NCBI GenBank assembly: GCA_023255735.1
Contig: JAGDVP010000022.1
Location: 1 to 64,000, forward strand
From: Halothiobacillus sp.
GTDB lineage: Bacteria > Pseudomonadota > Gammaproteobacteria > Halothiobacillales > Halothiobacillaceae
Direction: 5' to 3'
DNA: 64,000 nt
Below the pieces are notes generated by a model, which saw only the letters and a list, made by a program, of their open reading frames with translations, did not search any database and had not been told where the DNA came from. A program made the translations under genes and the position numbers. Of this stretch, positions 1,215 through 20,151 are shown piece by piece; position 1 is the stretch's first letter, and every line of letters starts with the position of its first letter.

Positions 1215-2177
1215 TTATTGAATTGAAAACTTTTTCAAACGATAGAGAAATGTGTCTCGCGATAAACGCAGCAACCGCGCTGCGCGGCTTTTGTTGCCCC
1301 CGGTGCGCGCCAGCGCTTGGCGGAGCAAATCCGATTCAATTGCTTCCAAATCCACCCCACTTTCGGGCAAATCAAAACGCGGGGTTTTCACTACTTCAAT
1401 TTCGGCCGCGCGCAATTCGTGCGGTAAGTTTTCGACGTCAACCGTGCGCCCGGCATTCAAAATAACCAAACGTTCAGCCAAGTTGCGCAATTCGCGCACA
1501 TTGCCCGGCCAAGGATGACGACGAATCACCCCCTGGGCATTGGCGGTTAACCTCGGCAAATGCACATCATATTGCGCTGCAAAATCGGCCATAAATCGAG
1601 CCAACAACCAATCAATATCCCCTTGGCGCGCACGCAATGGCGGTAATTCAATCGGCACGACTTGCAAGCGATAAAACAGATCAGCCCGGAATTGCCCCGT
1701 GGTAACTAACTGCGCCAAATCCCGATGCGTTGCCGCCACCAAGCGCACATTGACTCGATGCGTTTGCGTATCGCCAAGGCTTAGAACCTCACCAGTTTCT
1801 AAAAATCGTAGCAACTTAGCCTGCACTGCAAGGCTTAATTCGGCAATTTCATCGAGAAATAAGGTGCCGCCATCGGCTGCGCGAATCATGCCGTCATAAT
1901 CGCTCTGTGCGCTCGTAAAAGCGCCGCGCTTATGGCCGAACAACTGAGATTCGGCTAATGATTCTGAAAATGTAGCACAATTAACCGCAACATAAGGTGC
2001 CGCATGACGCCGAGAACCCATGTGTAGCGCACGGGCAATAAGCTCTTTGCCGGTACCCGATTCACCGAGAATTAAGGTTGTCGCTTCGGTGGCTGCCACA
2101 ATTTGCACGCTGCGCAATACCGATTCAAATATCGGCGACTGTGTCCAAATTTGAGAAAAAATTGCGGGCTGTGACAT
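1215..2177 (-). CDS. Sigma-54-dependent transcriptional activator, no receiver domain
   Basis: AAA+ activator of sigma-54 RNA polymerase, about 320 aa. After a short N-terminus comes the ATPase with Walker A 'GESGTGKE' (residues 38-45), Walker B 'GGTLFLDEI', and sensor and arginine-finger regions ('FRADLFYRL'). A C-terminal Fis-type helix-turn-helix follows ('GGNKSRAARLLRLSRDTF'). No receiver, GAF or PAS domain precedes the ATPase, so control must come from a partner protein or from expression level, as with PspF. The sigma-54-contacting loop reads GAFTSA (residues 85-90) instead of GAFTGA. The ATG at 2177 with AGAGAAG upstream is preferred over the in-frame TTG at 2198. Its targets cannot be told from the neighbours. 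Confidence 0.85.
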   Translation of the reverse strand: MSQPAIFSQIWTQSPIFESVLRSVQIVAATEATTLILGESGTGKELIARALHMGSRRHAAPYVAVNCATFSESLAESQLFGHKRGAFTSAQSDYDGMIRAADGGTLFLDEIAELSLAVQAKLLRFLETGEVLSLGDTQTHRVNVRLVAATHRDLAQLVTTGQFRADLFYRLQVVPIELPPLRARQGDIDWLLARFMADFAAQYDVHLPRLTANAQGVIRRHPWPGNVRELRNLAERLVILNAGRTVDVENLPHELRAAEIEVVKTPRFDLPESGVDLEAIESDLLRQALARTGGNKSRAARLLRLSRDTFLYRLKKFSIQ

Positions 2178-2260
2178 AGGACACTTCTCTGACAACAAAT
2201 GTTAGCAAAAGTATAATACGGCATGGGTTAATTGCCACATAAAAACCTTCTATCGCTAGA

Positions 2261-10857: not shown

Positions 10858-12084
10858 TCATAGAGACCCGTGTGCCATGACACCTTCATCGGTGCCCGCC
10901 GCATAGGTGAGCTGGGCGACATTATCGCGGGCGAAAAACCCCTGAAAACTGCCAAAACGCTGCACATATTCGATGATGAGTGAGGAGTATTCAGAAGCCG
11001 AGGAGAAAATCTGTTTCAAGCCCTCCTCGCGCGAGCCGACGGTATCAAGTAAGAACCGCTTGCCTTGGGATGAAATGGCACCCACCACAAAATCAATATG
11101 TTCCAACCCGTTGGTTTGGCCATCGGCCACGGTGAGCGCCATGTGGTGCAAACGCGGGCCATAGTTGCGCACAAACGTTTCGGTTGGGCTGGGCAATTGA
11201 TCTAAATGATTTACACAATACGGGGTGTTATTGGCGGTAAATACTTTGGCGGGCGAACTGGACTCTGGCGCGCCGCGCACGTTTTTGGTGACATTCGTTG
11301 AGGAGTTTTGATCTGTAATATCGTAGCTACCCCAATAGTAATAGCTTGATAAAGCCAAGTATTCGAGCAAGGCTGCCTCGCGATTTTGGCTATAGACCCG
11401 GGTGGCTAGGTGGTCGATCGGCAGAATCATGTCTTTTACGCCGATGTGTTCCTGCATGGCTTTGCCGCGCTCATAGGCGGCTTGCGCCTCGGGCATAATG
11501 TGTGAATCGCCGTGTTGGTACACCCGAATGCCATCCGATGAGCGTTCCATGTAGCCCACCACATTTTGGGTGTAGGGCGAGGGCTTGGAGATGCTCATAT
11601 TCAGCGGCAAATCCAATTCGGCTAACTGCCCCATGGTTAAAAAGCGAAACTCGCGCTCTTGCTGCATCGCCACCACATCGTAGCGATTGGTTACGCGCAA
11701 AATCTCACCCAAATAACGGCTGTGGGGCCGGCGCGCACCGACGGGATATTGATCGTTCAGGCTGCGGAATAAATCGCTGTACTCGGGGGATTTAATTTCT
11801 CGCAATAAAATATCGGGCGAATTCATGTCGATGCGCAAAATATGCGTCAGGTGTTTGGGGCTATCGAGCGTAACCAAGTAGTGGTAGGGCGTCATGAGGG
11901 CTAATTCGGAAATATATTCAAGCGATTTGCCCGGCTCGACCGAAATCATCATCGCTTCGATGCCGCCGATGAGTTCAGTCAACCCACTGCGATCGCGCTC
12001 GGCCAGCACGCGGGGCAAATATTCTTCAAAAAATGTCGAATTTTGTTTATCGCCAAACCGCTGAAAACTATTGGAATCGAACAT
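10858..12084 (-). CDS. HPPD-like vicinal-oxygen-chelate dioxygenase, fifth gene of the Anbu/transglutaminase operon
   Basis: The 408-aa product resembles 4-hydroxyphenylpyruvate dioxygenase in its C-terminal half. All three non-heme iron ligands of that family can be placed: H225 in 'PIDHLATRV', H314 in 'LHHMALTVAD' and E372 in 'LIIEYVQRFG'. The tail 'GFFARDNVAQLT' matches the HPPD 'GNFKALF' region. The first 200 residues are diverged, as in the vestigial HPPD N-domain. No tyrosine-catabolism genes are near, so a different substrate is likely. It follows the transglutaminase-like gene by 33 bp and has its own strong ribosome site (AGAGAGGAA before ATG 12084). An oxygenase acting on the product or substrate of this operon is my inference. 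It could also be an unrelated passenger gene. Confidence 0.7.
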   Translation of the reverse strand: MFDSNSFQRFGDKQNSTFFEEYLPRVLAERDRSGLTELIGGIEAMMISVEPGKSLEYISELALMTPYHYLVTLDSPKHLTHILRIDMNSPDILLREIKSPEYSDLFRSLNDQYPVGARRPHSRYLGEILRVTNRYDVVAMQQEREFRFLTMGQLAELDLPLNMSISKPSPYTQNVVGYMERSSDGIRVYQHGDSHIMPEAQAAYERGKAMQEHIGVKDMILPIDHLATRVYSQNREAALLEYLALSSYYYWGSYDITDQNSSTNVTKNVRGAPESSSPAKVFTANNTPYCVNHLDQLPSPTETFVRNYGPRLHHMALTVADGQTNGLEHIDFVVGAISSQGKRFLLDTVGSREEGLKQIFSSASEYSSLIIEYVQRFGSFQGFFARDNVAQLTYAAGTDEGVMAHGSL

Positions 12085-12117
12085 GAGTTCCTCTCTATAT
12101 TAAATGCACATCAAAAA

Positions 12118-15100
12118 TTAACGGGGCTGCCAGCGCAAATCGAGCGTGAGGGGAAAACGAGGGTTTTGGGTCTCTGGGCGCAAAACGTATTGCCCCGGCG
12201 TGTGCCCATGATCCCAAAACCGTGAGCGACGACGAGCCTCAGCCTCGTTCGCATTGACGGGGAACAGCTCATACCCTCGCCCGCCCGGATGGCTTACGTG
12301 GTAGGTGCAGCCGCCAATTGCGCGGTTATTCCAGCCATCAATCAAATCAAAAATGAGTGGGGCTTGCACGCCGATGGTGGGGTGCAGCGCCGAATACGGG
12401 GCCCAGGCCTTGAATCGTACCCCAGCCACAAATTCTCCCGGTACCCCGGTGGGATGCAGCGGCACCGCGCGGCCATTGCAGGCGATTTGATGGCGATTGC
12501 CAATGAGGCCGCGCACCAGAATTTGCACCCGTTCAATAGATGAATCGACATAGCGCGCGGTGCCGCCTGCGGCCATTTCTTCGCCCAGCACGTGCCATGG
12601 CTCAATGGCTTGACGCACCTCAAGCGTCACCCCTTCATAACTCACCATGCCATAACGTGGAAAGCGGAATTCCAAAAACGGCACAAACCACGCTTCATCG
12701 AAGGCGTAGCCGGCCCCGCGTAAATCGCGGCAAATATCCTGCATATCTTGTTCAATAAAATGCGGCAACATGAAGCGATCATGCAGCGCCGTGCCCCAAT
12801 CCACCAATTTGCCGCTGTAAGGGGTTTTCCAGAAGCGGGCAACTAAAGCGCGTAGCAGCAAAGATTGCACGAGGTTCATGCGCTCGTGCGGCGGCATTTC
12901 AAAGGCACGCAGCTCCAAAATCCCTAAACGCCCCGTGGAAGAATCGGGGGAATAGAGCTTGTCGATACAAAACTCGGCTCGATGCGTATTGCCGGTTAAA
13001 TCCACCAGCATGTGCCGCAGCAAGCGATCGATCATCCACGGTTGCTCGGATACTTGCCCGGGCGGAAATTGTAAATCCAGTTGCTGGAAGGCGATCTCCA
13101 GCTCACCCAAGGTGTCATCTCGCGCCTCATCCACACGAGGCGCTTGGCTGGTGGGGCCGATAAACTGCCCCGAAAATAAATACGATAACGCGGGGTGCTG
13201 CTGCCAGTAGGTGAGCAAACTTTTTAATAAATCGGGGCGGCGTAAAAACGGGCTATCGGCAGGTGTGGCGCCGCCCAAGGTGACATGATTGCCCCCACCC
13301 GTGCCGGTATGCCGGCCATCGAGCATGAATTTTTCAGCCCCTAAGCGGGCATAACGCGCGGCACCGTATAAATGGTGCATGTTGCGTTCAAGCTCATCCC
13401 AAGTGCCGACGGGGTGGATATTGACTTCTATCACCCCAGGATCCGGCGTGACCGATAACGATTGCAGCCGCGCATCCCGTGGGGGCGCGTAGCCTTCCAT
13501 CCGAATGGGTTGTTTGAGTGTTTTAGCGCAATATTCAATCGCGGCGACTAGATCGAGCCAAGATTCCAACGTCGTTAAGGGCGGCATGAATACGTGCAAA
13601 ATACCATTGCGCACTTCGAGCGCCAGTGCGGTATGAATCACCTCTTGGGGATTTATGTGTGCCGCCACCGGCATCGGCGCAACCAGTTTTGGGTTGGTTG
13701 GTGTGCGGGGGTAATCGCCCAGCACTTGGCGCGCGGCATAGGGATCGACGGGAAAATCGACCGGCTGGGCTTTAGGGTCAACCCACGGCAGGCTATCGAG
13801 GGGCAAACGCAGCCCAAGCTGGGAATCGCCACCTAATAAAAATAAACGCTCGGTTTTAAGCGGCCACAGGCTGGAATGCCAAATCACTTTTTCTGCCGTG
13901 TGGGCTTTGAGCGGCAATACATAGCCCACGGTTTCACCTAAGCCTATGCGCAATTTGCGCGCTAATTGTCCGCGTGCGGTGGCATCACTTAAGCTGGCTT
14001 TTAGGGGATCGATATTCACCGGCAAGGCGGCTTCCATTGTGAGCGCCAAGAGTGGGTCTTCATAAGCTGCAATCACATAATCGGTTGAAAGCTGTAAGCG
14101 CGAGGCCAGTAAATGCGCAAAATGATAGGCGCGGGCTTTGGGTATGGCCGATGCAGGCGCGGGTTGGGCAACGGGTGATTCAACGGGTGGCACGACGGGC
14201 GCAGCCGCGCTGGCCGCGCTCGCAGGCAGGGCGGGCGCGTTGGCAAGCAAGGCGGCATCATGCCAAACGGGTTTGCCATCAAGCCGCCAATAAACGCTTA
14301 AAGCCCAACGCGGCAGGGGTTCACCGGGGTACCATTTGCCTTGGCCAAAATACCGCAGCCCGCCGGGGGCAAATTGATCACACAAACGCTGCATTAAATC
14401 TTGCGCCAGCACCCATTTTTGCTCGCCCAGCGCGGCAATATTCCACTCAGGCGCATCCATATTATCGAGTGCCACAAAGGTGGGCTCGCCCCCTTGAGTT
14501 AGGCGCACATCGCCTAATTGCAATTCTCGGTCGATGTCGCGTCCTAACGCTTGCACGGCCTGCCATTGCGCCTCGGTGTAGGGTTTGGATACGCGCGGAT
14601 CCTCAAAGATGCGGGTGACGGTCATCTCGACAATTAATTCAGATTCACACACGCTGGTCATGCCACTAATCGCTGCCGCCGATGAAGGCTGCGCGGTGGC
14701 CGCCAAGGGAATATGCCCCTCGCCCGCCAGCAAGCCCGAGGTGGCATCGAGCCCCACCCACCCCGCACCGGGAATGTAGGCCTCGCACCAGGCGTGTAAA
14801 TCAGTGAAATCACTCGTGGGGCCGGCAGGGCCATCAATGGGTTGCTCATCGGCCACCAATTGAATGAGGTAGCCTGAGACAAACCGCGCAGCGATGCCTA
14901 AATGCCGCAGGGCTTGAACCAAAAGCCAGGCACTATCCCGGCAAGAACCCGAGCCTTGCACCAAGGTTTCTTCCGGCGTTTGCACGCCCGGTTCCATGCG
15001 GATGAGATACCCCACGCTGCGCTGCACGGTTTGATTAACCTGCACTAAGAAATCGTTAATTGTGAGCGTTTTAGGCAAGCTTTGGCGCAACGATTCAAGC

Positions 15101-15489
15101 CAATGTTTGAACTGTTTATCGGGGGGGCTTACGTCTAAAAAAGGCGCGAGCTCAGCTTTCATGTCATCGGGGTAAGCAAAAGGATAATGCTCGGCCCAGG
15201 GCTCGACAAAAAAATCAAACGGGTTGATCACCGTCATATCAACCACGAGATCGACCGTCACCTCAAACGCCACGGCCGGTTCTTGAAACGTGAGCCTTGC
15301 TACAAAATTGCCGTAGACATCTTGCTGCCAGTTGACAAAATGTTTGGCGGGCAACACGGTGAGCGAATAGCTCAAAATGGGGGTGCGGGCATGCGCGGCG
15401 GGGCGCAGGCGAATTTCATGGGGGGAGAGAACCACCGCCCGATCAAACAAATAGCGGCTTTTATGATGCAGGGCAACGCGAATAGTCAT
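12118..15489 (-). CDS. Large transglutaminase-like protein with DUF2126 region
   Basis: Protein of 1123 aa in two parts. Residues 1-95 form the bacterial transglutaminase N-domain. Residues 165-255 are a transglutaminase/protease core with triad C183 ('GSGSCRDSAW'), H232 ('DLHAWCEAY') and D248 ('GLDATSG'). From about 290 to the end is the DUF2126 region, glutamine-synthetase-like by published analysis, with 'GGEPTFVALDNMDAPEWN', 'HTGTGGGNHVTLGG' and 'AEFCIDKLYSPD'. An Ala/Pro-rich linker lies near 425-460. The family is predicted to make or break amide bonds in peptides. The start overlaps the Anbu stop (ATGA). Substrate and reaction direction are unknown. Confidence 0.88.
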   Translation of the reverse strand: MTIRVALHHKSRYLFDRAVVLSPHEIRLRPAAHARTPILSYSLTVLPAKHFVNWQQDVYGNFVARLTFQEPAVAFEVTVDLVVDMTVINPFDFFVEPWAEHYPFAYPDDMKAELAPFLDVSPPDKQFKHWLESLRQSLPKTLTINDFLVQVNQTVQRSVGYLIRMEPGVQTPEETLVQGSGSCRDSAWLLVQALRHLGIAARFVSGYLIQLVADEQPIDGPAGPTSDFTDLHAWCEAYIPGAGWVGLDATSGLLAGEGHIPLAATAQPSSAAAISGMTSVCESELIVEMTVTRIFEDPRVSKPYTEAQWQAVQALGRDIDRELQLGDVRLTQGGEPTFVALDNMDAPEWNIAALGEQKWVLAQDLMQRLCDQFAPGGLRYFGQGKWYPGEPLPRWALSVYWRLDGKPVWHDAALLANAPALPASAASAAAPVVPPVESPVAQPAPASAIPKARAYHFAHLLASRLQLSTDYVIAAYEDPLLALTMEAALPVNIDPLKASLSDATARGQLARKLRIGLGETVGYVLPLKAHTAEKVIWHSSLWPLKTERLFLLGGDSQLGLRLPLDSLPWVDPKAQPVDFPVDPYAARQVLGDYPRTPTNPKLVAPMPVAAHINPQEVIHTALALEVRNGILHVFMPPLTTLESWLDLVAAIEYCAKTLKQPIRMEGYAPPRDARLQSLSVTPDPGVIEVNIHPVGTWDELERNMHHLYGAARYARLGAEKFMLDGRHTGTGGGNHVTLGGATPADSPFLRRPDLLKSLLTYWQQHPALSYLFSGQFIGPTSQAPRVDEARDDTLGELEIAFQQLDLQFPPGQVSEQPWMIDRLLRHMLVDLTGNTHRAEFCIDKLYSPDSSTGRLGILELRAFEMPPHERMNLVQSLLLRALVARFWKTPYSGKLVDWGTALHDRFMLPHFIEQDMQDICRDLRGAGYAFDEAWFVPFLEFRFPRYGMVSYEGVTLEVRQAIEPWHVLGEEMAAGGTARYVDSSIERVQILVRGLIGNRHQIACNGRAVPLHPTGVPGEFVAGVRFKAWAPYSALHPTIGVQAPLIFDLIDGWNNRAIGGCTYHVSHPGGRGYELFPVNANEAEARRRSRFWDHGHTPGQYVLRPETQNPRFPLTLDLRWQPR

Positions 15490-16307
15490 GATGGCGGTAT
15501 CTCTTGAGTGGGGATCTGACCCTGGATTTGATTCTGGGTTTGAATAAACACATCAGAACCGGCTGGGGGGAGCGTTGAGCACACCCATTCAGGATCGGGC
15601 AAGGTGGAAAATACACTCCGCAAACCCTCGCTCCAGCTGCCACTAATAGCAGTAAAGTAGGGGTCGCCTTCGGGCAGCTGGCGCAAGTTATCCAGCACGA
15701 GGCTATCTTTCACATAACAGGCCAAATCAATTGGCATACCCACCGATACATTGCTGCGCATGGTGGAATCAAACGAGACCATGACGCATTTAATTGCCTC
15801 GGGCAGTTGGGTTTCTGGGCGAATCACGCGATCAATAATGGGCTTGCCATATTTAATTTCGCCAATTTGGAAAAACGGGGTGTTCTCAGTGGCCTCAATA
15901 AAATTACCTTCGGAGTACACCAAAAATAAACGCGGGGCTTCGCCTTTAATTTGGCCGCCAATAATAAAATTGGCACTCACATCAATATTGCCCGCTAATA
16001 AATAAGGGCGGTCGGTGCTTTGCACCCGACGCAAACACTCACCGAGCAGGCTTGCCACATCAAACATTGATTCAACATTCCAGATGTTGCGCTCATCATG
16101 TTTGCGCCCCTGAATTTCCAGCGTGTTGATGGCGTTTTGGGTAATCGATAAATTGCCCGAGCTTAAAATCACAATGCTGCGATCACCGCGATGCACAAAG
16201 CTGCGCATTTTTTTAAAGCTGGAGATTTGATCCACCCCCGCATTGGTGCGAGAGTCGGAGGCAAATACGAGGCCGGCGTTTAGTTTGAGTGCAACACAGT
16301 AAGTCAT
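15486..16307 (-). CDS. Anbu proteasome-like N-terminal nucleophile hydrolase
   Basis: Bacterial relative of proteasome beta subunits, 273 aa. Removing Met1 exposes Thr1 ('TYCVALKLNAG'). D17 in 'FASDSRTNAGVD' and a lysine at 31 or 32 in 'SSFKKMRSF' supply the rest of the Ntn active site, and 'ILSSGNLS' is the conserved glycine strand. These features match Anbu (COG3484) rather than HslV; no HslU-like ATPase adjoins. Anbu assembles into open helical or ring forms and its substrate is undefined. It sits third in the operon, 31 bp after the alpha-E gene, and overlaps the transglutaminase start by ATGA. A peptide-trimming or activating role is inference. Confidence 0.9.
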   Translation of the reverse strand: MTYCVALKLNAGLVFASDSRTNAGVDQISSFKKMRSFVHRGDRSIVILSSGNLSITQNAINTLEIQGRKHDERNIWNVESMFDVASLLGECLRRVQSTDRPYLLAGNIDVSANFIIGGQIKGEAPRLFLVYSEGNFIEATENTPFFQIGEIKYGKPIIDRVIRPETQLPEAIKCVMVSFDSTMRSNVSVGMPIDLACYVKDSLVLDNLRQLPEGDPYFTAISGSWSEGLRSVFSTLPDPEWVCSTLPPAGSDVFIQTQNQIQGQIPTQEIPPS

Positions 16308-16338
16308 ATCAGCGCTTCGCTATAAATCAAAAGGGCAT

Positions 16339-17334
16339 TCATTGTAGTTGCAACTGAAAGCGATCAGGCCGAATGCCGCCGGGGATTTTGTCGTCTTTAA
16401 GCGATAAATAGGCATCATGAATCTCGCAGCTGAGCTGATGCGTGCGCGCTAAAAAATCGGTTAAATACTCATGCAAGCCATAGGCAAACACATCGTCAAT
16501 GCGGGTGAAATGCAGTGCCGCATGCAGTTCACCGGCCAACCTGCGGGCTTCTCGCCCCGTGCTGCCGTTGATAATTTCGAGCGTGCTTTCCACCTCGTTT
16601 AAGCAGGCATGTAATGAGCGCGGCATATCGGCACGCAAAATTAATAGCTCCGCCACCCGCATCGGGGTGATGCTATCGCGGTAAATTTTGCGGTACGCCT
16701 CCTGCGCGCTCACCGAGTTAAGCAAGGCACCCCATTGGTAGTAATCTGCCGCCCCGCCCACATCGTGCACACTGGGCAAGAGAATGTGATATTTCACATC
16801 CAAAATGCGCGCCGTATTATCCGCGCGCTCTAAAAATGTGCCTAAGCGGATAAAATATAACGCATCATCTTTTAGTATCGTGCCAAGGGTAACCCCACGA
16901 AACAAATGCGAACGCTCTTTAACCCAATCAAAAAACCCATCTAGATTGGCCTGATCGAGCGAGGGCAACATGCGCTTTAAATCCAGCCACATGCTGTTAA
17001 TAATTTCCCACATTTCGGTTGTGATGGCACCGCGTACCGCACGGGCACTTTCGCGCGCCTGCATCAGGCTTGAATAAATACTGGAGGGGTTATCCGAATC
17101 GATCGCGATATAACGGGTCACGTTACCCGCCTCAACCTCGCCATATTTTTTCTCGTAGCCTTCGGCTGAACCGCAAATATTCAAGGGCGCAAACCACAGG
17201 CGCGCCACCGCGCCCTCATCCTCATCCGGCAGCATGGCGGTGCGGTGTGCCACATCCAAAATTCTCGCGGTATTCTCCGCGCGCTCAATGTAGCGCGCCA
17301 TCCAAAATAAATGATCGGCTGTGCGTGAAAGCAT
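16339..17334 (-). CDS. Alpha-E domain protein (DUF403)
   Basis: Soluble all-alpha protein of 331 aa. The opening 'MLSRTADHLFWMARYIERAENTARILDV' and the repeated 'FLERADNTARILDVKYH' near 170-190 are the glutamate-rich helices that give the alpha-E family its name. This family almost always accompanies circularly permuted ATP-grasp and transglutaminase genes; its biochemical role is unproven. It starts 3 bp after the ATP-grasp stop, and the ribosome site GGAGGAA lies within the end of that gene, so the two are translationally coupled. Confidence 0.92.
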   Translation of the reverse strand: MLSRTADHLFWMARYIERAENTARILDVAHRTAMLPDEDEGAVARLWFAPLNICGSAEGYEKKYGEVEAGNVTRYIAIDSDNPSSIYSSLMQARESARAVRGAITTEMWEIINSMWLDLKRMLPSLDQANLDGFFDWVKERSHLFRGVTLGTILKDDALYFIRLGTFLERADNTARILDVKYHILLPSVHDVGGAADYYQWGALLNSVSAQEAYRKIYRDSITPMRVAELLILRADMPRSLHACLNEVESTLEIINGSTGREARRLAGELHAALHFTRIDDVFAYGLHEYLTDFLARTHQLSCEIHDAYLSLKDDKIPGGIRPDRFQLQLQ

Positions 17335-17337
17335 GAT

Positions 17338-18777
17338 TTATTCCTCCAATACCCAAGTATCTTTTGTGCCGCCCCCTTGCGATGAATTAACCACAAGCGA
17401 GCCTTCGGCCAAGGCGACGCGGGTTAACCCCCCGGGGGCTAAGCGAATTTCTTTGCCCGAAAGGACAAATGGGCGCAAATCGACATGGCGGGGCGCAACA
17501 CCGCTCTCCACCATCGTGGGGCAGGTGGATAAAGCAAGGGTGGGTTGCGCAATAAAGCCTGCGGGATTTTGCACAATGCGGGCACGGTACGCCTCAATTT
17601 GCGCCTCGGTGCTCGTGGGGCCAACCAACATGCCATAGCCCCCCGAGCCTTGCACTTCTTTGACCACCAACTCGGACAAATTCGACAAAACATATTTAAA
17701 ATCATCGGGTTGATCGAGCCGCCAAGTGGGCACGTTCGATAACAGCGGTTTTTCACCAAGATAAAACTCAATCATCTCGGGCACAAATAAATAGGTAGAT
17801 TTATCATCGGCAATGCCCGTGCCCACACCATTGGTTAAAGACACGCCGCCATGACAATACGCATCAAACAGCCCCGGCACGCCGAGCAGTGAGTCGGGTC
17901 GAAACACCAATGGGTCTAAATAGTCATCATCCACGCGCCGATAAATCACATGCACTTGCTGCGGGCCTTGCGTGGTGCGCATATATACCTTGTGGCCGCT
18001 TACGAATAAGTCTTTGCCTTCAACTAATTCCACCCCCATTTGGCTCGCCAAAAACGCATGCTCAAAATACGCACTATTAAAGGCACCGGGTGTCAGCACC
18101 ACAATCACTGGGTCTTCTACATGCACGGGCGCCGATTCCCGCAGGGTTTGCAGCAATAATTGCGGATAATGCGCCACGGGGCGCACCGTGTGCTGGGTAA
18201 AAAGATGGGGAAATAGCCGCATCATCGTATTGCGGTTTTCGAGCATGTAGGACACACCCGATGGCGTGCGCAAATTATCTTCCAACACATAAAAATCATT
18301 TTCAGCCACACGCACCAAATCAATACCCGCAATTTGTGCATACACTTGATTTGGTAAATCGACGCCCTGCATCGCCGCGCAATACATGCTGTTGCCCAAT
18401 ACCTGCTCTGCGGGAATAACCCCGGCTTTGATAATCTCCTGATCGTGATAAATATCATGCAAAAACATATTTAAGGCTTTAACGCGCTGCATTAAACCCG
18501 CCTCTAAACGCTGCCACTCTTGCGCGCCAAATACCCGCGGCACCACATCAAAGGGGATTAAACGCTCTTCTTCTGCGGCAGCACCATACACAGCAAACGT
18601 AATGCCCATGCGACGAAATAATAATTCCGCATCCCGCTGTTTTTGCCCAAGCAATTCAACTGGTAGAGATAACAAATGCTCTGCCACATCAAGATACTGC
18701 GGCCTTGTTACGCCATCGAAACCCTGCATTTCATCAAAACAGCGGGGCGTTACAGGAATCGTATTCGAATTATCCAT
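17338..18777 (-). CDS. Circularly permuted ATP-grasp protein (DUF404/DUF407)
   Basis: Predicted ATP-dependent carboxylate-amine ligase of 479 aa, first gene of the five-gene operon. Family landmarks are 'RMGITFAVYG', 'ERLIPFDVVPRVF', 'VLEDNLRTPSGVSYMLENR', 'GVGTGIADDKSTYLFVPEMI', 'ELVVKEVQGSGGYGML' (nucleotide-binding lysine and glycine-rich loop) and 'LRPFVLSGKEIRLAPGGLTRVAL'. ATP-grasp enzymes activate a carboxylate as acyl phosphate and join it to an amine. This subfamily is predicted to form short peptides or modify them. AGAGAA sits six bases before the ATG. Acceptor and donor substrates are unknown. Confidence 0.9.
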   Translation of the reverse strand: MDNSNTIPVTPRCFDEMQGFDGVTRPQYLDVAEHLLSLPVELLGQKQRDAELLFRRMGITFAVYGAAAEEERLIPFDVVPRVFGAQEWQRLEAGLMQRVKALNMFLHDIYHDQEIIKAGVIPAEQVLGNSMYCAAMQGVDLPNQVYAQIAGIDLVRVAENDFYVLEDNLRTPSGVSYMLENRNTMMRLFPHLFTQHTVRPVAHYPQLLLQTLRESAPVHVEDPVIVVLTPGAFNSAYFEHAFLASQMGVELVEGKDLFVSGHKVYMRTTQGPQQVHVIYRRVDDDYLDPLVFRPDSLLGVPGLFDAYCHGGVSLTNGVGTGIADDKSTYLFVPEMIEFYLGEKPLLSNVPTWRLDQPDDFKYVLSNLSELVVKEVQGSGGYGMLVGPTSTEAQIEAYRARIVQNPAGFIAQPTLALSTCPTMVESGVAPRHVDLRPFVLSGKEIRLAPGGLTRVALAEGSLVVNSSQGGGTKDTWVLEE

Positions 18778-18903
18778 GATCGTTCTCTAAGCTAGATCGG
18801 CAGGTTGATATGCGCCATGGAGTTAAATGCAAAACTCGAGCCAATTAATTAAAAACAATAAGCCATTGATAAATAATTAAAAAAAATTACAACAAAAAAT
18901 CAA

Positions 18904-18964: not shown

Positions 18965-18994
18965 CACAAAAATTAACGCCACATGATTGTGGCG
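18965..18994 (-). terminator. Probable terminator downstream of the DUF2242 lipoprotein gene
   Basis: CGCCACA-TGAT-TGTGGCG (18977-18994) is a perfect 7-bp stem. Read on the minus strand it is followed by TTAATTTTT. It lies about 140 bp past the lipoprotein stop and would insulate the ATP-grasp operon from read-through. Confidence 0.6.
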
Positions 18995-19133
18995 TGCGTT
19001 TATAGTCAAAAGATTTCTAGGCTATTTCAAAATAACTAAAGTCAGATGCAGGTCAATAGTTACAGGCGCACCGATAAGCTAAATTAATTTAGCCCGCCTT
19101 ACTTTATTTATGAGCGCGGGTTTAAGCGGGTAA

Positions 19134-19970
19134 TTAGGGCGCTGGGTGGGCGGCTGGATTAAGCCCAGTGTTGGTGCTCGGTTGCTCTGATTTTTCTGCC
19201 TGCTTAGAGGGCGTTGTGGCATCGGGTGCCGGCTTTAGGGTTTGAGTGGAATCGGCAGCCTGCGGGACGGGCGCTTCGGGCATGGCCGCCGCCGGCTCGG
19301 TAACCGGCTCTGTCACGGGCTCGGGCGTGCGCGTTAAAACCGGCACGGGCGGTTCTGCAGGAACGGATTGGGGTGTTGAAGCGGGCGGCACAGGGGATAC
19401 CGCTGTGGGTATTTTTGGCGCAGCGGGCAGCACATCTTGATTTGCATCACCCAAAACACCTTCTACCGAGGCAAAAAACCGCTTGTAAAATACTCGATCG
19501 GTAATGGTTTCATCCGAAACTTTAACCATAGAATCAACACTTTGTCCGATCGGCAGCGAAATTGAGCCAATCACAGAGAGCCCGACGCTCGCGGCATTGG
19601 CTGATTTTTTTAAATCATAAGTCGAGATTAAACCATTCGCATAAATGGTGCTCCCCAAGGTGTCTTGCAAGCACACCACGCTCATTTCAAGAAAGCTACT
19701 GCGCCCTCCATCCATGCGGTACGCCTTGCGCCCTTTAATCGTGCCCATTTTAGCGCTGGCACTATCGAGCGTGTAGCCATCGCCCAGTAACGTGCGCTCT
19801 GCCGCAGAACAGGCAATTTTTGCACTGGCTGAAACATGCTTTTGATAGGGGCTATCGTTAGAAAAACTATCTTTAGCAAATGAGCCCGGTGTGCTGCACG
19901 CCGCAAGCATAAAGGCACCGGGCACCAATACCAAGGCGCACAAAATAAGGGGGATGGGCAATTTTTTCAT
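19134..19970 (-). CDS. DUF2242-family lipoprotein with Pro/Ala-rich tail
   Basis: Predicted lipoprotein of about 278 aa. The signal peptide 'MKKLPIPLILCALVLVPGAFMLAAC' ends in a lipobox (LAAC). A globular domain of about 150 residues ('CSAAERTLLGDGYTLDSASAKMGTIKGRKAY', 'VGLSVIGSISLPIGQSVDSMVKV') follows and matches my memory of DUF2242. The last 90 residues are Pro/Ala/Glu-rich with 'EPVTEPVTEPAA' repeats, probably a disordered periplasmic spacer. ATG 19970 is preferred over the TTG at 20015 because the signal peptide then begins correctly. The function of this family is unknown. Confidence 0.75.
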   Translation of the reverse strand: MKKLPIPLILCALVLVPGAFMLAACSTPGSFAKDSFSNDSPYQKHVSASAKIACSAAERTLLGDGYTLDSASAKMGTIKGRKAYRMDGGRSSFLEMSVVCLQDTLGSTIYANGLISTYDLKKSANAASVGLSVIGSISLPIGQSVDSMVKVSDETITDRVFYKRFFASVEGVLGDANQDVLPAAPKIPTAVSPVPPASTPQSVPAEPPVPVLTRTPEPVTEPVTEPAAAMPEAPVPQAADSTQTLKPAPDATTPSKQAEKSEQPSTNTGLNPAAHPAP

Positions 19971-20151
19971 GAGGGTAATTACAACGGGGTTTTGGGGTAT
20001 AAATATCAGTTTCAAATACTATCACGGCACAGTGCGGGCATCTGCCGTGGAATGTAACAAAGATAATTACACGCGCTTTATGCGCAAAAGGCCATCGTGG
20101 CGGCATCGCCTTTTTGCGTGGAAGGCGTCTGCATCAAAGCCATGCAAAATC

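Follow-up and report, generated by a model that had tools for sequence, protein, structure and literature searches.

The window analysed here is a 64,000-nucleotide stretch of Halothiobacillus sp. (contig JAGDVP010000022.1, positions 1 to 64,000) that carries an operon of the type containing Anbu, a proteasome-related N-terminal nucleophile (Ntn) hydrolase, extended by a fifth open reading frame (ORF), ORF5, whose product is predicted to be an HPPD-type oxygenase. All five genes lie on the minus strand. They encode a circularly permuted (CP) ATP-grasp ligase of 479 amino acids (17338-18777; Pfam CP_ATPgrasp_1, E 4.9e-165, and CP_ATPgrasp_2, E 5e-163), an Alpha-E protein of 331 (16339-17334; PF04168, E 2.9e-101), Anbu itself with 273 (15486-16307; Pfam Proteasome, E 7.1e-6), a transglutaminase-like domain fused to a DUF2126 putative amidoligase, 1123 amino acids in total (TG-DUF2126; 12118-15489; DUF2126, E 0, Transglut_core, E 5.7e-16, and Bact_transglu_N, E 3.6e-24), and the 408-residue ORF5 (10858-12084), the last characterised by fold and profile comparison. 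By ORF coordinates the consecutive gaps are 3, 31, -4 and 33 bp, exactly as an earlier sequence-only reading of this DNA had described them, and Pfam supports the names which that reading gave to the first four families. Two elements are new here: ORF5 as a protein family, and a sigma-54-type box before the operon that is enriched at related ATP-grasp and ORF5 genes.

Anbu operons have been described as comprising ATP-grasp, alpha-E, transglutaminase-like and Anbu genes (Iyer et al. 2009, Valas & Bourne 2008, as cited in the accessible parts of PMC6376114 and PMC5666114). The window resembles them in holding all four families, tightly spaced on one strand, and departs from them in the fusion of the transglutaminase to DUF2126, its position after Anbu, and the presence of ORF5 as fifth gene. 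The window Anbu also retains the catalytic Thr/Asp/Lys residues: T2, D18 and K33, conserved in an alignment of 13 Anbu proteins, correspond to Thr1/Asp17/Lys32 in the mature numbering given in the available text of PMC6376114. The word ‘dioxygenase’ is absent from the accessible text of PMC6376114 and PMC5666114, as is ‘glyoxalase’ from that of the second, and among the open-access papers listed in literature searches none was seen, by title and abstract opening, to link an HPPD-like protein to Anbu or alpha-E, which is not proof of absence.

Compared with Pfam and NCBIfam as a sequence lacking its first Met, ORF5 matched 0 families at E<=1 for any part of its length, TIGR01263 and PF07063 included, and neither ORF5 by itself nor its 11-row profile found anything credible among PDB sequences. 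The label ‘HPPD-like’ in the sequence-only reading therefore has no family model behind it, but fold comparison and profile-profile alignment both uphold it. An initial structure model built on 11 close relatives only was discarded (pLDDT 31.8); an AlphaFold2 model built on 95 relatives reached a pLDDT of 82.6 and a pTM of 0.85, and its predicted secondary structure reads as four HPPD-like beta-alpha-beta-beta-beta-like modules. Foldseek comparison of this model with the PDB gave 227 matches at E<=0.001, the best being 8im2 (HPPD, E 2.1e-13) and 2r5v (hydroxymandelate synthase, HMS, E 9.0e-13). All 50 of the matches listed were HPPD or HMS, with query TM-scores of 0.43-0.57 and identities of 10-16%. 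The modelled protein thus has the predicted two-VOC-domain fold of HPPD. Full-length hhalign alignment to an HPPD profile gave P 7.8e-4 and a score of 34.75, where the maximum in 150 column shuffles was 27.2, and the C-terminal halves aligned with a score of 41.0 and a probability of 83 (maximum 25.9 in 150 shuffles). The ORF5-HPPD score was reached by 0/150 column shuffles, and a reversed ORF5 control scored 16.9. As a computational prediction, the assignment of ORF5 to the HPPD-type oxygenases is well supported. A plasmid collection searched at E 0.01 contained no match to ORF5.

The same profile alignment sets H225, H314 and E372 in register with the His/His/Glu metal triad of HPPD, and these three residues, together with R229, are invariant in 95/95 aligned relatives, which predicts a 2-His-1-Glu metal site in ORF5. 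The QIF and E-x-x-Q-R motifs of HPPD and HMS are likewise shared. ORF5 differs from both enzymes in its low identity, in the lack of a TIGR01263 or Pfam match and at two positions next to the site: R229, four residues past the first metal His, stands where 11/12 HPPDs have Asn, and H313, preceding the second metal His, replaces a Gln found in 11/12. An Arg at this position, within a DHxAxR motif, is instead a likeness to HglS and FLO7 (DUF1338, PF07063). Four of five DUF1338 stretches cover the site and three of them have DH[IF]A[LF]R (L139, L140 and L143, not L141), the fifth, L142, stopping short; the solved hydroxyglutarate synthase 6W1K carries a motif of this type at chain positions 58-63. 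The PDB list of PMC7286885 identifies 6W1K as FLO7, and according to that paper FLO7 Arg64 has nearly the position of Arg74 in HglS, the residue to which the distal carboxylate of 2-oxoadipate is bound. We take the motif Arg of 6W1K to be Arg64, although the numbering is offset by one. HglS has no activity on 2-oxoglutarate according to the same portion of PMC7286885, and an Arg at this position therefore does not settle the chain length of a substrate. Unlike HglS, ORF5 is unmatched by PF07063 and has an HPPD-like C-terminus. By these model tests ORF5 falls outside DUF1338, PF07063 and a one-sequence comparison both being negative. ORF5 is a family new to Pfam and NCBIfam that combines features of HPPD and HglS.

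Relatives of ORF5 were gathered by a scan of genome contigs that yielded 197 stretches, the best 80 of which were used. Among these, the closest named relative belongs to a Halothiobacillus sp. (L013, 93% identity), and the named carriers include Halothiobacillus, Sulfuriferula, Sideroxydans, Gallionella, Ferriphaselus, Methylomonas, Crenothrix, Methylophilus, Methylotenera, Methylobacillus, Methylovorus and Mariprofundus, which are chemolithoautotrophs and C1 users. Neighbourhoods were compared in 49 loci flanked by 9 kb or more on each side, a set biased towards the closest relatives of the window (L064 was excluded, its ORF5 having been missed by the mechanical ORF caller). A gene of the Anbu system lies within 9 kb of ORF5 in 45 of the 49 loci (ATP-grasp in 44, Alpha-E in 33, Anbu in 25, TG-DUF2126 in 23), and the genomes of the other four have a CP-ATP-grasp gene elsewhere. 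The largest of the other neighbour gene clusters span at most 10 loci, and the 13 examined track related Methylophilaceae loci with single exceptions. The gene order ATP-grasp, Alpha-E, Anbu, TG-DUF2126, ORF5 is shared by the window, Sulfuriferula and Methylomonas; Methylotenera has ATP-grasp, Alpha-E, a short transglutaminase, ORF5 and Anbu, and divergent arrangements are found elsewhere. Far from being a rare neighbour, as would have spoken against the operon membership proposed by the sequence-only reading, ORF5 adjoins Anbu, alpha-E and ATP-grasp genes in many genera.

This association extends to a broader sample of 369 evenly drawn Gammaproteobacteria, in which 30 genomes were positive for ORF5, 106 for Alpha-E and 87 for Anbu. 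Alpha-E was present in 28/30 ORF5 genomes against 78/339 others (Fisher 1e-14), and Anbu in 27/30 against 60/339 (Fisher 8e-16). ORF5 was linked to the system in 15/30 (G000, G052, G069, G071, G074, G107, G127, G188, G194, G209, G231, G289, G323, G359 and G384), and in 4/30 a contig end was too near for linkage to be read (G142, G266, G342 and G354). The 30 include partial or interrupted copies in G231, G342, G074 and G182, and a match of only 39 residues, with a stop at the contig end, in G289. Within the host order, 11/27 genomes carry ORF5: 8/10 in the same genus, 3/5 in another and 0/12 in two more. ORF5 is thus well supported as a recurrent, non-universal partner of Anbu-type operons. The host genome itself (2.06 Mb, 29 contigs, 93.5% complete) has a single Alpha-E and a single Anbu match, both being the operon genes, and a RuBisCO match; searches of it for 2-oxoglutarate dehydrogenase E1 and for HPPD found no match. 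The host is probably a sulfur-oxidising gammaproteobacterium.

Copy number and integrity vary among these loci. One genome has two ORF5 copies, each next to its own Alpha-E gene (G069:C16 and G069:C7), and two loci with an interrupted or partial ORF5 still hold Alpha-E and Anbu (L165 in G182, L172 in G231), reflecting either loss in progress or assembly error. Seven loci have two Anbu genes (L025, L026, L029, L044, L045, L046 and L072), the further copy being 38-46% identical to the window Anbu and lying before the ATP-grasp gene in L025, L026, L029 and L046.

A promoter was sought in the 356 bp that precede the operon. They contain a sigma-54-type -24/-12 promoter-like box, TGGCTCGAGTTTTGCA (18828-18843, minus strand; GG-N10-GC), which ends 50 bp upstream of the ATP-grasp ATG and, read from 18843 to 18828, has 1 mismatch to the sigma-54 consensus TGGCACGN4TTGCW. 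Matches with at most two mismatches number 19 in the whole window against 19.8 expected, so that the box is no proof by itself and its weight comes from position and conservation. When the upstream regions of four Halothiobacillus-type loci were aligned, it stood out by eye as the clearest conserved block, and in a per-locus scoring 47/49 rows reached at least 9/12 (L072 scored 8 and L081 6; the 9 scored by the L022 row is spurious, the contig being cut). Under a stricter rule, at least 10/12 consensus positions with GG and GC obligatory, the box occurs upstream of 29/38 unit-starting CP-ATP-grasp genes (P 3e-23) and of 15/35 ORF5 genes called unit-starting (P 6e-9), against 17/323 other unit-starting genes. 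For 8 of those 35 ORF5 genes tblastn placed the end of a same-strand system gene less than 400 bp upstream, and a box is lacking in all eight, which leaves 15/27. Genes inside a unit have the box in 1/42 cases for ORF5 and 7/24 for ATP-grasp, and the other unit-starting system genes in 3/18 (TG-DUF2126), 0/11 (Anbu) and 0/3 (alpha-E).

A promoter isolating ORF5 from the operon was not apparent either: a pattern scan found no sigma-70-like site in the 33-bp gap before it, and between 10650 and 12400 a sigma-70 search gave a single weak match, which lies inside the gene (1.9 expected). The host genome contains rpoN and an above-cut-off ntrC. In Burkholderia cenocepacia, the accessible part of PMC5491218 includes a DUF404/407, DUF403 and transglutaminase cluster in the sigma-54/NtrC regulon, and in Pseudomonas putida grown on nitrate versus ammonium, Table 2 of PMC8050072 lists Anbu (PP_2685) as raised by log2 4.44 and the CP-ATP-grasp gene (PP_2688) by 3.99. 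By analogy with the Anbu operons of these two species, control of the window operon by nitrogen limitation is possible.

Other features of the window are of less consequence. The next gene upstream of the operon encodes a DUF2242 protein (19134-20015, minus strand; Pfam), and a pattern scan placed a terminator-like hairpin of 8 pairs with a T tail between the two (18976-18995, minus strand), terminator-like sites in the region not being above chance (5 seen, 6.3 expected). A sigma-54 activator gene, with Pfam matches that include no receiver domain, is found at 1215-2198 (minus strand) beside an IS4/5-type transposase gene (340-1104). Across positions 1-64000 neither an Rfam family at its gathering score nor a gene for tRNA or tmRNA was detected.

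We propose that the five genes probably form one sigma-54-dependent transcription unit, which would be expressed in the host under nitrogen limitation. The first four would combine ATP-dependent amide ligation, by ATP-grasp and DUF2126, with an opposing amide hydrolysis or transfer by the transglutaminase-like domain and Anbu, presumably on a glutamyl or peptide amide. ORF5, the recurrent fifth component, whose named carriers are mostly chemolithoautotrophs and C1 users, would act as an Fe(II)- and O2-dependent 2-oxoacid oxygenase of the HPPD/HMS/HglS type through its predicted 2-His-1-Glu site. The invariance of R229 at the HglS-type Arg position suggests a second carboxylate on the 2-oxoacid, and our hypothesis, by analogy, is that the substrate is dicarboxylic. 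ORF5 might then decarboxylate and hydroxylate the glutamate-family 2-oxoacid left once nitrogen has been removed from the product of the system, the direction of the pathway being one that we infer. Taken as a whole, a nitrogen-limitation operon under sigma-54 in which ORF5 serves the Anbu pathway as a dicarboxylic 2-oxoacid oxygenase is a reading that we judge about evenly balanced between right and wrong.

Several observations weigh against it. In the profile comparisons the full-length ORF5-HPPD probability was only 24.9, an unrelated Anbu profile scored 27.1 over 27 columns, and ORF5 gave no match to one DUF1338 protein (P 0.3). Kinship among the loci behind the neighbourhood and box counts makes the P values overstate independence. 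For P. putida, the available part of PMC7801951 shows PP_2686-2688 rising similarly in the wild type and in a presumed rpoN-mutant column (column order inferred), which counts against strict sigma-54 dependence, and gives values of 1.12, 4.81 and 1.45 for PP_2685. ORF5 also stands alone in 11/30 genomes of the broader sample (G041, G177, G182, G257, G264, G265, G272, G274, G288, G304 and G382), unlinked here meaning that tblastn with the window proteins, which very divergent genes could escape, found no system gene within about 7-9 kb. In G304 (99% complete), and likewise in G342 (79% complete), ORF5 is present and no ATP-grasp, Alpha-E or Anbu gene was detected. ORF5 can therefore exist without the Anbu system.

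In two of the 11 unlinked cases the context is consistent with glutamate-family metabolism. ORF5 and putA overlap by 4 bp in G304, where a glutamate-synthase-domain gene follows in an apparent operon (L152:9843-15852, G304:C33). In G264, a malic-enzyme gene lies about 20 bp downstream of ORF5 on the same strand, and a flavin/NAD oxidoreductase gene precedes ORF5 (L157:8289-10899, G264:C9). The other unlinked loci have no common neighbour except an aminotransferase gene near three of them, one identified by Pfam; in this comparison the ORF displayed as ORF5 in L160, a wrong-strand overlap, was ignored. Together with R229, the putA/glutamate-synthase and malic-enzyme contexts point to a small dicarboxylic 2-oxoacid rather than to the oxidised peptide or amide that the sequence-only reading had suggested. 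Carbon metabolism was compared in 80 genomes, namely all 30 with ORF5 and the first 50, in list order, of the 78 with alpha-E and no ORF5. A long match to 2-oxoglutarate dehydrogenase E1 was missing from 14/30 of the former and 7/50 of the latter (P 0.003, kinship ignored), and a RuBisCO match at E <1e-50 was found in 26/30 against 24/50 (P 0.0007, kinship ignored). About half of the ORF5 genomes have E1, and its loss therefore cannot be the whole explanation. A more specific version of the proposal would have ORF5 turn 2-oxoglutarate into malate and CO2 in the manner of HMS, fired by sigma-54/NtrC as 2-oxoglutarate accumulates, with the Anbu system freeing glutamate nitrogen upstream. This escape route for a tricarboxylic acid cycle that lacks 2-oxoglutarate dehydrogenase is a long shot in our estimation.

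The rival that survives best holds that ORF5 is an independent nitrogen-limitation enzyme, sharing a regulon and a neighbourhood with the Anbu system and no substrate. It would account for the unlinked copies, for the boxes belonging to ORF5 itself at unit-starting copies (15/35, or 15/27 once the eight misjudged are removed) and for the missing system in G304. Against this, alpha-E is kept in 28/30 ORF5 genomes although most sampled genomes lack it, and in Methylotenera ORF5 lies inside the operon between the transglutaminase and Anbu genes, a placement that co-regulation alone does not demand; we regard this rival as rather unlikely, if a serious one. If ORF5 oxidised the peptide or amide product of the ligases, the operon would yield an oxidised small molecule or a peptide modification, and this reading is in keeping with the linkage between ORF5 and the ligase genes, found in many gene orders, and with the predicted HPPD-type fold of ORF5. 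Such a role seems unlikely, in that HPPD, HMS and HglS take free 2-oxoacids, R229 matches in position the HglS-type Arg that binds a small dicarboxylate, and G304 has ORF5 in an apparent operon with putA and no ligases. That ORF5 is a VOC-fold protein with a binding or structural role and no oxygenase activity would suit its lack of any family model and an activity that is so far predicted only, yet the conservation of the three predicted ligands and R229 in 95/95 aligned sequences makes this very improbable.

Structures of Anbu have been solved, and to our knowledge no substrate is known for it. Under the proposed reading of ORF5 as a dicarboxylic 2-oxoacid oxygenase in the Anbu pathway, the window operon is of the known Anbu type with ORF5 added, and offers a testable chemical handle on a puzzling pathway. 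Assays should be simpler for a co-inherited, possibly co-regulated protein whose active site is predicted to take small molecules than for Anbu, and identifying the product of ORF5 would reveal the chemistry of the pathway to which Anbu belongs. The malate route, if true, would constitute an O2-dependent exit from 2-oxoglutarate in bacteria that lack 2-oxoglutarate dehydrogenase under nitrogen starvation.

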